This document shows positions 23,800-28,151 of a stretch of 28,788 bases of DNA, one piece after another. Below the pieces are notes generated by a model, which searched no databases, was not told the DNA's origin, and was given only the letters and a program-made list of their open reading frames with translations. The number at the start of each line of letters is the position of its first letter. The first letter of the stretch is position 1. Position numbers and translations under genes: made by a program. Origin of the DNA: a virus. Location: IMG/VR virus record IMGVR_UViG_3300008120_000231, positions 1 to 28,788 of that record; one strand, 5' to 3'.

Positions 23800-24410
23800 T
23801 GCCAGCATACATTTACACTAAAATGGTCGAAGAAGCTTCTAAAACTGGTGTATCATTAGCACAGTTTACAAATAGGGCTAGGTCTTGGCTAACGCAAAAA
23901 TATGCTCAGATTGGTAAAGAAACGGTTCGTCCTGTTCGATTTATTGAACAAGTAGACCGTAAGAAACGAAGAATTCGTATAGGAAGATTGTATATGTTTT
24001 TATACGATCCAAAGGGAAAGAAAGAACTCCCTTACTACGATAGATTTCCTTTAGTGTTTCCTGTTGATTTCGAAACTGATGGTTTCTATGGTCTAAACAT
24101 GCATTACTTGCCGCCAGTTCTTCGCGCGAAACTATACGATAGTTTGCTAGAATTAAAAACAAAAAGCGAAAACGAGAACATCAGCGCTGTCGAATTAACA
24201 AGAATAAGAATAACATATACTCTACTTAAGAAAGCGGCAAGATTTAGATTTTTCAAACCATGCTTTAAGCATTATTTGTATAAACAAGTTCGTTCTCCAT
24301 TCATCATTGTTCCAGAGGAAGAATGGAATATCACCATGTTTTTACCTTCTGAGCAATTTAAGAAAGCAACTAAAGAACAAGTCTGGAAAGACAGCAGGAG
24401 CAAAGTCTAA
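23799..24410 (+). CDS. Conserved T4-like phage protein, possibly DNA end protector gp2
   Basis: This 203-residue protein is basic. It contains IGRLYMFLYDPKGKKELPYY, DRFPLVFPVDFETDGFYGLN, MHYLPPVLRAKLYDSLLEL and, near the end, VPEEEWNITMFLPSEQFKKA followed by VWKDSRSKV. I recognise this as a conserved family in T4-like phages, with F.YDP..K..LPYYD.FPLV as its hallmark. In T4, gene 2 (DNA end protector) is next to gene 4, and this gene directly follows gp4, so gp2 is a reasonable guess from synteny; the sequence alone does not prove it. The high Lys/Arg content would suit DNA binding. Its start overlaps the gp4 stop and its stop overlaps the next start. Confidence 0.5.
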   Translation: MPAYIYTKMVEEASKTGVSLAQFTNRARSWLTQKYAQIGKETVRPVRFIEQVDRKKRRIRIGRLYMFLYDPKGKKELPYYDRFPLVFPVDFETDGFYGLNMHYLPPVLRAKLYDSLLELKTKSENENISAVELTRIRITYTLLKKAARFRFFKPCFKHYLYKQVRSPFIIVPEEEWNITMFLPSEQFKKATKEQVWKDSRSKV

Positions 24411-25225
24411 TGGCTTTTAACATAAACGAGTTCAGCGCCAATATCGGCGGAACTGTACTTTCACAAGCGCATTTTTTAGTTAAGTTTGGAAAGCCAAACT
24501 GTTTACTCAAAACAAATGAAATGCAAGACCTAGAATTTCTTTGTAATTCTGCGCAACATCCACGTGTAACTGTCGCAACCGAAAGAATCCAACCTTTCGG
24601 ATATGGTCGAGGATATCTAAGTCCATATGCTGCTGTTTTGGAAGATTCCACAGTTTTTGATTTTTATGTTAGAGCCAAGGACGCACTACCAGCGAGAATG
24701 TTTCATTTCTGGGTGCAACAAATTGTAGGAACCCCTACTGAATCATTCGACGTTCCTAGCGCAGGAAAGGCATTAAAAACTGGTCAAGTCGCTTATAGAA
24801 GCGACTATGTTTCTACAATAGAAATTATTAGCTTTAACTCTGCTGGAACCGAGCTAATAAAAAGCACTCTATATGAAGCATATCCTACTTCAGTTTCTGA
24901 TATTCAGCATTCTTGGGTTTCTGAAGATATTCTGAGAATGCAAGTATCAGTTACATTCGCTGGGTTTAGAATGCAAACATTTAAAGCCAACGATGATACG
25001 TTTGAACAAATATCGGATCAAGAATATGGAAATCCAGATTACAGATCGCCAGCATATGCAGACGCTGTAAACAAGGCAAGAGAATCCACAGAAAAGAATA
25101 GATCTTTGGTGGATAAGCTATCAAGTAGCTCAAAGTTCGCTCAGAGCTTCTTAAATAAAAACTTACCAGAACAACTAAATACATTGACCTCTAAGACTTT
25201 TACTGATTTTGGCGGCATAATATAA
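24410..25225 (+). CDS. 54: Tail-tube-like protein, probably baseplate tube initiator gp54
   Basis: This 271-residue protein has the tube-protein pattern: an N-terminal MAFNINEFSAN, LEFLCNSAQHPRVTVATERI, a YGRGYLSPYAAVLEDSTVFD segment, ARMFHFWVQQIVG, and a final strand region LYEAYPTSVSDIQHSW followed by LRMQVSVTFAGFRMQTF. gp19, gp48 and gp54 share this fold. Because it is next to gp26 and near gp48, and is longer than a plain gp19 tube subunit, I favour gp54, which starts tube polymerisation on the baseplate. gp19 cannot be excluded. The C-terminal 70 residues (about 200-271) are polar and helical, unlike a simple tube subunit. Translation is coupled by a TAATG overlap. Confidence 0.55.
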   Translation: MAFNINEFSANIGGTVLSQAHFLVKFGKPNCLLKTNEMQDLEFLCNSAQHPRVTVATERIQPFGYGRGYLSPYAAVLEDSTVFDFYVRAKDALPARMFHFWVQQIVGTPTESFDVPSAGKALKTGQVAYRSDYVSTIEIISFNSAGTELIKSTLYEAYPTSVSDIQHSWVSEDILRMQVSVTFAGFRMQTFKANDDTFEQISDQEYGNPDYRSPAYADAVNKARESTEKNRSLVDKLSSSSKFAQSFLNKNLPEQLNTLTSKTFTDFGGII

Positions 25226-25249: not shown

Positions 25250-25948
25250 ATGGGATTACCAAAGATTAAACAACCTGTTTTTACAATGACGCTTCCTTCT
25301 ACGAAGAAAGCTGTTAGATATCGCCCATTTACTGTGGCGGAAGAAAAACTGGTTCTAATTGCCAAAGAAGGCGATTTAAAAGATACAATTAATGTCTATA
25401 AACAAATTATTAACAACTGCTGTTTAGACCAGATTGATGTGGATAAGATGGCTTCATTTGATATTGAATATTTCTTTATCAATATCCGAGCGAAATCTGT
25501 ATCCAATATTATTGAAGCAACAATTAAAGACCACGATGATGGAGCCACATATCCAATCACAATCGATTTAGACAAAATTAAAGTTACAGAAAGCAAGCAT
25601 TCCAATAATATCAAGTTGACAGACAGCATCGGAGTTGTGCTTAGATATCCTACATTTGAAGCACTAACTACCATAGAAACTACTAGCGTCGGTCAAGAAA
25701 ATAAAGTGATGAGTTTGATGGCTTCTTGTATAGAGCAGATTTACGAAGGCTCAGAAGTATACGAAGTTTCAAACTATACCAGAAGCGAATTAGAAGAATT
25801 TGTATCTTCGCTAGGTATGAAAGAACTTGGTCTTATTAAAGATTTTATCGAAGATATGCCGAAGGTATATGTTGATGTTACTTACAAGACCTCAGCAGGA
25901 AAAGAAAAGAGTATTAAATTAGAGGGGTTACAAAGTTTTTTCGTCTAA
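25250..25948 (+). CDS. 26: Baseplate hub assembly protein gp26
   Basis: This 232-residue protein is read from MGLPKIKQPVF at 25250, which has GGAG 6 bases upstream; an ATG at 25238 would add four residues and lacks such a site. The T4 baseplate family pattern is clear: LPSTKKAVRYRPFTVAEEKL followed by IAKEGDLKD, INNCCLDQIDVDKMASFDIE, YFFINIRAKSVSN, IKLEGLQSFFV. gp26 helps build the hub together with gp51, gp28 and gp29. Before the stop at 25946-25948 lies a T TTT TTC slippery heptamer with a hairpin beyond it, suggesting a second, longer product by -1 frameshifting into the following 58-residue ORF. It is directly upstream of that ORF and the tape measure gene. Confidence 0.85.
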   Translation: MGLPKIKQPVFTMTLPSTKKAVRYRPFTVAEEKLVLIAKEGDLKDTINVYKQIINNCCLDQIDVDKMASFDIEYFFINIRAKSVSNIIEATIKDHDDGATYPITIDLDKIKVTESKHSNNIKLTDSIGVVLRYPTFEALTTIETTSVGQENKVMSLMASCIEQIYEGSEVYEVSNYTRSELEEFVSSLGMKELGLIKDFIEDMPKVYVDVTYKTSAGKEKSIKLEGLQSFFV

Positions 25949-25971
25949 TGGTAGGTTACAGCGATCTACCA
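25936..25971 (+). other. Probable programmed -1 ribosomal frameshift site at the end of gp26
   Basis: Three parts are seen. The slippery heptamer T TTT TTC (25936-25942) is in the gp26 frame with zero-frame codons TTT TTC. A spacer of 6 bases (25943-25948) contains the gp26 stop. A hairpin follows, with TGGTAG (25949-25954) pairing with CTACCA (25966-25971), extended by a G-T and a T-A pair inside. An SD-like AGAGGGG at 25921-25927 ends 8 bases before the heptamer, as in dnaX-type sites. A -1 slip leads into the 58-residue ORF without a stop. The predicted product reads QSFF, then RLMVGYSDLP, about 291 residues in total. Confidence 0.7.
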
Positions 25972-26124
25972 CAGTACTATCAATTAAACTTCTCATTGAT
26001 GCAACATCATAATTATGCTATGGCTGATATAGAAAATTGGCTTCCATTTGAGCGTGATATCTATGTTAATATGCTACTCAAATATTTAGAAAAAGAAAAA
26101 GAACGACTAGCTAGGAACAAGTAA
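25948..26124 (+). CDS. 58-residue ORF: frameshift extension of gp26 and/or separate small hub-assembly protein (gp51-like)
   Basis: The ORF begins at an ATG overlapping the gp26 stop (TAATG) and ends at TAA overlapping the tape measure ATG. The product is MVGYSDLPQYYQL..., with ADIENWLPFERDIYVNMLLK and a charged helix LEKEKERLARNK. The ENW.PFER..Y...L motif is typical of short proteins encoded just before tape measure genes in T4-like phages, where some are labelled gp51; that label is from memory and position. No good ribosome binding site is near its ATG: AGAGGGG is about 20 bases away. The ORF lies in the -1 frame relative to gp26, open from 25918, so it could be made as a gp26 fusion. By analogy with lambda G-T, it would bind the tape measure. 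Confidence 0.75.
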   Translation: MVGYSDLPQYYQLNFSLMQHHNYAMADIENWLPFERDIYVNMLLKYLEKEKERLARNK

Positions 26125-28151
26125 TGGCAGATGATATAAAAACAAGTCTTGCTGATATAATGAAAACCATAAAAGATTGGAAAAAATCTTCTAAGGAAAA
26201 AGAAGGCGGCAAGAAGAAAGAAGACAAGAAGAAAGACGAAACAGTCGAGCTTCAGAAATCACAACTTTCTGAATTTAGCTTAATGAATGGCTCATTGTTG
26301 AAACTAGTCGATAACTCACAGCTTCAAATCATCGCCTTGGAGAATATCTCCGCAACTATCGCAGCAATAGCGACTGACATACTTCCTTCTAATTCGATGG
26401 ATCTGATAGACGTGTTTCGCGAAAAAGACAATCGCGACAAAATGGAAGCTGAAAAACTACAAGAGAAACAAGCAGCAGCCGCAGCTGAAGCTGGGTTAGA
26501 AACTCCAAAAGGCGAAGGCGAAGAAGATGAAGATGAAGAAAAAGAAAAAGGTGGATTCTTTAAGAATATATTCAAGTTTCTATCAGTATTGCTGATTCCT
26601 TTCATAGCTGGATTTGTTACTGGACTAAGAAAGAAGTTTGATGAAGTGACAGTGATAATTACTGGATTAATAGCTTGGATTACAACGAGTCCATTGAAAG
26701 CATTTAAGTTAATTTCCAAAATGTTCGGATTCCTGTACGAGATGACTCTAAAAGTATTTGAAGGCATCAAATCTATTGGAACAAAAATAAGAGATGGTAT
26801 ATTGCGAGGTCCTAAGTTAGTGAAGTCACTATTCACTGACCTTAGCTTAATGTTCTTGAAAATAAAAGACGCCATCACCGAAAGCAAAGCGTTCAAACTA
26901 GTCGAATCTATATTCTCGAAAATAAAGAAATTCTTTACAATGGTGGGCGAAGCTCTAAAACCAGTATTAAAATACTTCGACGAAGGAAGAGCAATATTTG
27001 GCAAACTGTTTCAGTTTATGTCAAAACTCGGTGGACTGTTTAAGTTTATTGCGCCAATCCTAGGAAAACTCGCGCTCCCAATAACCATTTTATATTCTTT
27101 ATACGAAGGTGTAATGGGAGCAATAGAAGGATTTAAGGAAGACGGTATAGTGGGCGCAATTAAAGGTGCCCTCGTTGGAATTATAGATGGTCTGGTTGGT
27201 TGGCTAGTTGGAATAGGTCAGTGGATTGTTTCTAATCTATTAGAGCTGTTTGGGTTTGACGAACTGGCGAAAATAGTAGAAGATTTTAACTTCAAGGATT
27301 TCCTAAATCAATTCATAGAATTCTTTTCACCAATAGCTATGCTCGCAAGTTTGTTCGACGAGAAGAGCATGATTAGAAAACAACTATCGAAGGCATTAGA
27401 CGTGATCGCCAAGTTTAATATCGGCGATATGATTGATGAACTGTTCGGCTCTATTACTGGATGGTTGAAAAATATCGCAGAGAAACTATCAGATTTGATT
27501 CCAGACATATTCAAGTCTGATGATGGCAAACCGAAGAGTGGTGGAACAAAAGATGGCGGAAAACAGAACAAGCCAACCCCATCTGCATCTAAAACCGCAG
27601 AAGAAGCAGAAAATAAAGTAGCAAATCTAGCAACTGCGCTATATGATGCCGCTTCTATTAGTGGCAATAAACAAATGAAAGAAGTTGCAGACGATATCTC
27701 TGGCGAAGGAATCGCATTGATGGACAGTTGGCCAGACGCGTTCGAGAAAGCTGGCAAATTTGGATTTACTGCTCAAGAAATAGAAGAGATGGCGAAGACT
27801 GGAACCAAACCATCGAAGAAACAAGCGCAACCGAAACCAAAAAAAGAAGCACCAGCAGCTCCACCATCGCAAACAAACGCTGGCGGTCCTGTTCCACAAC
27901 CAACAGCCATGGCGCCAGCCACACCTGCCGCTGGCAGTCCTGCGCTAGAACCAGCAGCTGCGCCACAAAAGGCAGCTGCTCTACAAATCGCTACTGACGC
28001 TGTAGTAGACGCGAAGAGCCAAAGCACAGTCGGACAGCAACCAGTTGTTCAAAATAACGTAAGTGCTCCGACAGTTAATAATAGTCAGAATAGCTATCAA
28101 GGATCTCTCGGTCCCGCAATTCAAGGCGATGCACTAGCAGCAATGGCATAA
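26124..28151 (+). CDS. 29: Tape measure protein (gp29-like hub subunit and tail-length determinant)
   Basis: This 675-residue protein begins with a highly charged segment (KKSSKEKEGGKKKEDKKKDE, residues about 20-42), then a helix, then an acidic run (EGEEDEDEEKEK, about 132-143). Hydrophobic helices follow at about 144-167 (FFKNIFKFLSVLLIPFIAGF), 314-337 and 342-372 (VGAIKGALVGIIDGLVGWLV), with long amphipathic helices between. The last 150 residues are Ala, Pro and Gln-rich and end VVQNNVSAPTVNNSQNSYQG. Such a helical protein with internal hydrophobic segments, right after gp26, fits a tape measure/gp29 (T4 gp29 is 590 residues). It fixes tail length and may leave the tail and insert in the inner membrane at infection. 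An AGGA site sits 7 bases before the ATG. Confidence 0.8.
   Translation: MADDIKTSLADIMKTIKDWKKSSKEKEGGKKKEDKKKDETVELQKSQLSEFSLMNGSLLKLVDNSQLQIIALENISATIAAIATDILPSNSMDLIDVFREKDNRDKMEAEKLQEKQAAAAAEAGLETPKGEGEEDEDEEKEKGGFFKNIFKFLSVLLIPFIAGFVTGLRKKFDEVTVIITGLIAWITTSPLKAFKLISKMFGFLYEMTLKVFEGIKSIGTKIRDGILRGPKLVKSLFTDLSLMFLKIKDAITESKAFKLVESIFSKIKKFFTMVGEALKPVLKYFDEGRAIFGKLFQFMSKLGGLFKFIAPILGKLALPITILYSLYEGVMGAIEGFKEDGIVGAIKGALVGIIDGLVGWLVGIGQWIVSNLLELFGFDELAKIVEDFNFKDFLNQFIEFFSPIAMLASLFDEKSMIRKQLSKALDVIAKFNIGDMIDELFGSITGWLKNIAEKLSDLIPDIFKSDDGKPKSGGTKDGGKQNKPTPSASKTAEEAENKVANLATALYDAASISGNKQMKEVADDISGEGIALMDSWPDAFEKAGKFGFTAQEIEEMAKTGTKPSKKQAQPKPKKEAPAAPPSQTNAGGPVPQPTAMAPATPAAGSPALEPAAAPQKAAALQIATDAVVDAKSQSTVGQQPVVQNNVSAPTVNNSQNSYQGSLGPAIQGDALAAMA

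Follow-up and report, generated by a model that had tools for sequence, protein, structure and literature searches.

A predicted −1 ribosomal frameshift joins gp26 to a gp51-like extension in the tail chaperone locus of T4-like phages

We propose that the gp26 homologue of a T4-like phage and the small gp51-like reading frame behind it very probably encode a tail assembly chaperone (TAC) of the lambda G/GT type, in which a programmed −1 ribosomal frameshift would make a long form (gp26-gp51) in addition to the short form (gp26). At the level of sequence comparison, the slippery heptamer, the −1 phase, the stimulatory signals, and the architecture of the fusion are all conserved among relatives. 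We infer the slippage itself, its rate, and the chaperone role of the products as follows. Most ribosomes would finish gp26 and give the short form. For a minority, an SD-like element (10 nt before the heptamer) and a hairpin (6 nt after it) would cause a pause, and a one-base backward slip on T TTT TTC would then carry these ribosomes into the gp51-like frame, yielding a predicted fusion of about 291 residues (...QSFF-RLMVGY...NK). If the products act like those of lambda G/GT, the numerous short copies would cover the tape measure protein, and a few long ones would recruit tail tube subunits.

Results

Locus layout and gene identities

The window (the whole stretch of DNA analyzed, 28,788 nucleotides) holds a T4-like virion module, with a baseplate wedge, a tube cap, and tail proteins on the minus strand. 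On the plus strand, a tail tube-like gene is followed by the gp26 homologue, a 58-residue ORF, and a 675-residue ORF (Table 1). The gp26 homologue matched PF12322 with an E value of 6.8e-56 (189.8 bits, with a family cutoff of 24.5) and phrog_150 with an E value of 1.7e-62. Its true start is probably 25250 and not 25238, because relatives begin at that Met and a GGAG lies 6 nt upstream; its stop codon, TAA, occupies 25946-25948. The small ORF matched phrog_634 (gp51) at profile positions 59-114 of 121 (E = 2.1e-22) and also matched the C-terminal end of phrog_150, with no match in Pfam/NCBIfam. Its ATG overlaps the gp26 stop (TAATG, 25946-25950).

The small ORF was first described as ending at the tape measure ATG. 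Its stop does overlap the ATG of the next gene at 26124; the identity of that gene as the tape measure is positional. The 675-residue product had no convincing family match and no sequence match to T4 gp29, and we therefore use the name “tape measure” for it on the basis of its place in the gene order.

The AlphaFold2 model of gp26 had a pLDDT of 91. A Foldseek search of this model against the PDB gave no significant match, the best relevant entries being the TAC structures 2ob9 (HK97 gp13; E = 0.46) and 3fgx (E = 3.5), and when the gp26 profile was searched against PDB sequences, it returned chance matches only.

Table 1. Features of the predicted frameshift locus and its neighbors (positions are those of the window)
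Feature	Position	Strand	Basis or remark
Tail tube-like protein	24410-25225	+	phrog_45 tail tube, E = 1.3e-20; expected upstream TAC neighbor
gp26 homologue, short chaperone form (TAC-N)	25250-25948 (ORF readable from 25238)	+	PF12322, phrog_150
SD-like AGAGGGG	25921-25927	+	GAGG core 10 nt before heptamer; probable 5′ stimulator
Slippery heptamer T TTT TTC	25936-25942	+	0 frame read as T-TTT-TTC
−1 frame extension (TAC-C, gp51-like)	25942-26124	+	60 residues, RLMVGYSDL...ARNK
Small gp51-like ORF	25948-26124	+	58 aa; phrog_634, “baseplate hub assembly catalyst”
9-bp hairpin	25949-25957 with 25963-25971	+	starts 6 nt after heptamer; probable 3′ stimulator
Next gene, probable tape measure	26124-28151	+	675 aa; position, long hydrophobic stretches

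The slippery site in the window

The gp26 frame ends with the codons TTA GAG GGG TTA CAA AGT TTT TTC GTC TAA. The first-pass annotation had placed a T TTT TTC heptamer in this frame, with the −1 phase open from 25918 through the end of gp26 into the 58-residue ORF, and both were read directly from the DNA at those coordinates. The SD-like AGAGGGG that it had reported upstream was confirmed as well and ends 8 nt before the heptamer. It had also stated that the small ORF has no well-placed ribosome binding site, and indeed no SD-like tetramer lies at the usual spacing from the ATG at 25948.

Heptamers of the form X XXY YYZ occur 9 times in the 4060 codons of plus-strand ORFs of at least 60 aa in the window, and of these, only the one at the end of gp26 is 15 codons or fewer from the end of its ORF. 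As a plain 7-mer, the sequence is no rarity in the window, where 13 copies are expected and 6 are present, and so the case is carried by frame, place, and conservation.

Conservation of the heptamer and the −1 phase

Relatives were gathered from IMG/VR with gp26 as the query and with the small ORF as the query, and named phages were added. The first set consisted of 98 junctions, after removal of gp26 proteins that were at least 90% identical. The second set consisted of 110 further distinct junctions, some of which came from the small-ORF search. The two sets partly overlap; pooled and thinned to less than 90% nucleotide identity, they yielded 158 junctions. Most of the relatives compared share 35 to 60% gp26 identity with the window phage.

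Relatives that have the same ORF pair but lack a slippery site or use another phase had been named in the first-pass annotation as evidence against a frameshift. Both features were kept in 96 of the 98 divergent relatives, in which T TTT TTY/A lies in the gp26 frame just before the stop and the −1 phase is open into gp51-like sequence. The last base of the heptamer was C in 53 of these, T in 42, and A in 1. All 110 further junctions likewise retained the heptamer and the open −1 phase.

Codon usage at the junction points the same way. All 95 Phe-Phe pairs at the junction are encoded by TTTTTT, compared to 5/100 of those at other places in these genes. A final T in the codon preceding the first Phe and TTT as the codon for that Phe are each found in 96/96 (backgrounds of 62% and 68%, respectively), but these two counts are conditional on a heptamer having been found, which makes the Phe-Phe comparison the cleaner one.

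The heptamer was absent from Vibrio phage K452 and Vibrio phage YC, the remaining two of the 98, which keep the ORF pair. In both phages, an ATG overlaps the gp26 stop (TAATG). These lineages suggest a switch from frameshifting to reinitiation or the use of another site. Variation was also seen in the distance from the heptamer to the gp26 stop. In one clade (L213, L214, L217, L218, L224, and L226), the stop follows the heptamer directly in the pattern TTTTTTC TAG; given this placement, a slowly read stop beside the A site may add to slippage. In Pelagibacter phage Mosig EXVC030M (about 2501-2549), the gp26 stop lies 24 nt past the heptamer compared to 0 to 9 nt elsewhere, and thus a longer stretch is coding in both frames.

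The upstream SD-like element

In 121/158 junctions, compared to 6.8% of control windows, the start of an SD-like tetramer lies 10 to 16 nt before the heptamer, and GAGG begins exactly 14 nt before it in 67/158. Where a Glu codon occupies the SD site, it is GAG in 41/55 cases versus a background of 28.6% over the remainder of the genes (P of about 2e-12). This preference argues for selection on the nucleotides and not on the protein alone.

Downstream RNA structure

The hairpin after the heptamer had been described as 6 to 8 bp long, pairing 25949-25954 with 25966-25971. Its place and its 6-nt spacing stand, but the stem is 9 bp long, and those coordinates are its outer 6 bp. Folding of 25915-25990, a check proposed in the first-pass annotation, gave a z score of −2.2, and folding of 25943-26000 gave −2.0. 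Structure is also found beyond the window. Against dinucleotide shuffles, the 70 nt after the heptamer had a mean folding z score of −2.4 (n = 95) compared to −0.2 for control gene bodies, and against synonymous recodings, the same region had a mean of −2.3, with 66/90 below −1.5. In the window's own clade (9 close relatives), the hairpin cells are 97% paired, both-side (compensatory) changes occur at three pairs among the 9 sequences, and the covariation score of the hairpin is 0.524 versus 0.208 or less for slid registers.

Plain APC-corrected mutual information, computed across all junctions, mostly reflected phylogeny and failed to single out the stems, and for this reason, we adopted a tree-aware simulation. 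Because codon constraints are left out of these simulations and the stems had been picked with the same data in view, the simulations are good but not final evidence for two stem designs: in the TTTTTTT junctions (n = 81), a long stem pairing positions 7 to 15 with positions 54 to 62 after the heptamer exceeded all 200 simulations (covariation, 2.33), and in the TTTTTTC junctions (n = 75), the local hairpin exceeded all 200 (covariation, 2.48), with the long stem unsupported there (covariation, 1.17; null, 1.03). We rejected a downstream stem common to all relatives because the long stem is supported only in the TTTTTTT members.

In the TTTTTTT class (for example, L020, L033, and L047), the long stem pairs the region of the gp26 stop with the LAQHH codons about 45 nt downstream. 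Compensatory changes in this stem include AGT/GCT, TGC/GCA, and AAT/ATT, and here, coding and RNA roles are tied together.

On balance, we lean toward a compound signal that has diversified, with TTTTTTC accompanied by a short hairpin, TTTTTTT by a long-range stem (often including the gp26 stop) to the L-A-Q-H-H codons, and a fixed-spacing SD in a large share of lineages. Heptamer and stimulator types would then have coevolved.

The fusion and single-ORF gp51

A profile of the conceptual fusion aligned over most of its length with single-ORF gp51, straight through the slip point. This search covered three proteins only, gp51 of T4, of Cronobacter phage Pet-CM3-4, and of Stenotrophomonas phage IME13, and gave E values of 6e-15 to 2e-21. 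That a single-ORF gp51 matches the conceptual fusion implies that the fusion is a real protein architecture. The gp26 profile alone matched T4 gp51 over its first 200 residues (hhalign, 97.6%; E = 3.3e-12) as well as T4 gp26 (hhalign, 99.6%). Judged from these alignments, T4 gp51 is the single-ORF counterpart of the gp26-gp51 fusion, and the short form has its homologue in T4 gp26. In T4, gene 26 is on the strand opposite to that of gene 51, and T4 therefore has no gp26/gp51 frameshift and makes both forms from separate genes. The long form is thus the separate gene gp51 in T4, whereas in the window locus, it would be gp26 plus the −1 extension. Taken together, the comparison of relatives strongly supports the first-pass proposal that gp26 and the small ORF are the T4-like counterpart of frameshifted tail chaperones.

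Start codons at the junction and alternative explanations

The window phage carries both the frameshift signals and the TAATG overlap, so that the fusion could be accompanied by some free gp51-like protein made by reinitiation. This is compatible with the frameshift, and we give it a small but real chance; most relatives lack a junction ATG, and nothing indicates a need for the free small protein.

A second possibility is that two separate proteins are made, with the small ORF expressed only by termination-reinitiation at TAATG and no fusion formed. The overlap is present in the window phage, in some close relatives, and in the two Vibrio phages without the heptamer, and in 25/158 junctions, the gp26 stop shares bases with an ATG. 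Public annotations of the relatives examined show two CDSs, and a joined gp26-gp51 CDS is absent from them. However, the ATG varies even among close relatives (L129 and L131 have TAACGAC) while the heptamer, SD, and hairpin are kept, and the same three features persist in relatives at 52 to 57% gp26 identity that lack the junction ATG. From ten codons before to nine codons after the slip, ATG, GTG, and TTG are all absent from the −1 frame in 69/158 junctions, and ATG is absent in 106/158, although the protein sequence there is conserved. Independent initiation is therefore not general. Annotated gp51 starts in public records cut into the conserved domain in Syn1, P-SSM7, Melnitz-3, S-H38, and others; in several of these (Syn1, P-SSM7, and Melnitz-3), gp51 is annotated inside the domain because a start codon is lacking. 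Separate proteins would also leave the invariant TTTTTT coding of Phe-Phe unexplained, and we regard this account as very improbable.

We consider transcriptional slippage, in which RNA polymerase makes a shifted message on the T run, to be slightly less probable still. Seven Ts are found in 82/158 junctions, but the window has only six followed by a C, and six Ts are a short run for polymerase slippage. Moreover, a phase-exact heptamer, an SD 10 nt upstream, and structured downstream RNA are ribosomal signals. A chance T run at a gene end beside an unrelated small ORF, which a 7-mer that is not rare would allow, is refuted by the conservation of the site in both sets of junctions, most of them at 35 to 60% gp26 identity.

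Discussion

The frameshift proposed here for gp26 resembles that of lambda gpG/gpGT in several respects. A −1 shift where the first gene ends gives a long form in addition to the short protein, the neighboring ORFs overlap, and the site lies after the tail tube gene and before the tape measure gene, which is only probable in our case. Unlike lambda, the window locus has a T-run heptamer, a conserved SD-like element and hairpins, and a T4-like contractile tail, and no sequence relation was found between the two. In P2 E/E+E′, from a different phage group, the gene for the short chaperone carries a T-rich −1 slippery site close to its end. The same holds for the TAC loci of the Vandenendeviridae and Andersonviridae (PMC12846349); these are again different groups from that of the window phage, with GTTTTT as the motif in the Vandenendeviridae.

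In lambda, the binding partner of gpG is the tape measure, and that of the T portion of gpGT is the major tail protein (PMC5009743). By this analogy, the extension described here would recruit tube subunits, and the earlier suggestion that the fusion links gp26 to the tape measure needs adjusting to match.

According to two later papers (PMC10885494 and PMC12846349), Vladimirov, Gautam, and Davidson (2022, Virology 566:9-15) assigned TAC genes in T4-like phages, the same phage group as the window locus. Their work is the source given in the 2025 paper (PMC12846349) for polyT −1 sites in T4-like TAC-N genes, and the PRFect paper (PMC10885494) refers to it for some T4-like phages that carry a short gene and a separate, fused long gene. 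The first-pass annotation knew of no description of such a shift for the T4 gp26/gp51 pair, a point that has to be corrected in light of the polyT sites already cited. As the citing papers present it, a frameshifted TAC in T4-like phages is not new in kind, and our locus is an expected extension of published work. Relative to those accounts, the present analysis adds its breadth, the SD signal, and two downstream RNA designs that follow the type of heptamer.

The arrangement also bears on gp51. The gp51 of cyanophages reaches about 20% of the length of its counterparts elsewhere and matches only their C-terminal part (PMC3037559), and a gp51 that is a C-terminal extension of gp26 explains this short form. 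The T4 gp51 protein is in turn suggested to work as a long chaperone. In the annotations of the relatives examined, the frameshift product is missing and gp51 is listed as a gene of its own, although the predicted device is conserved in well over a hundred of the related phages examined. With more than 150 natural junctions and two stimulator designs, these loci would be a good natural series for the tuning of −1 frameshifting.
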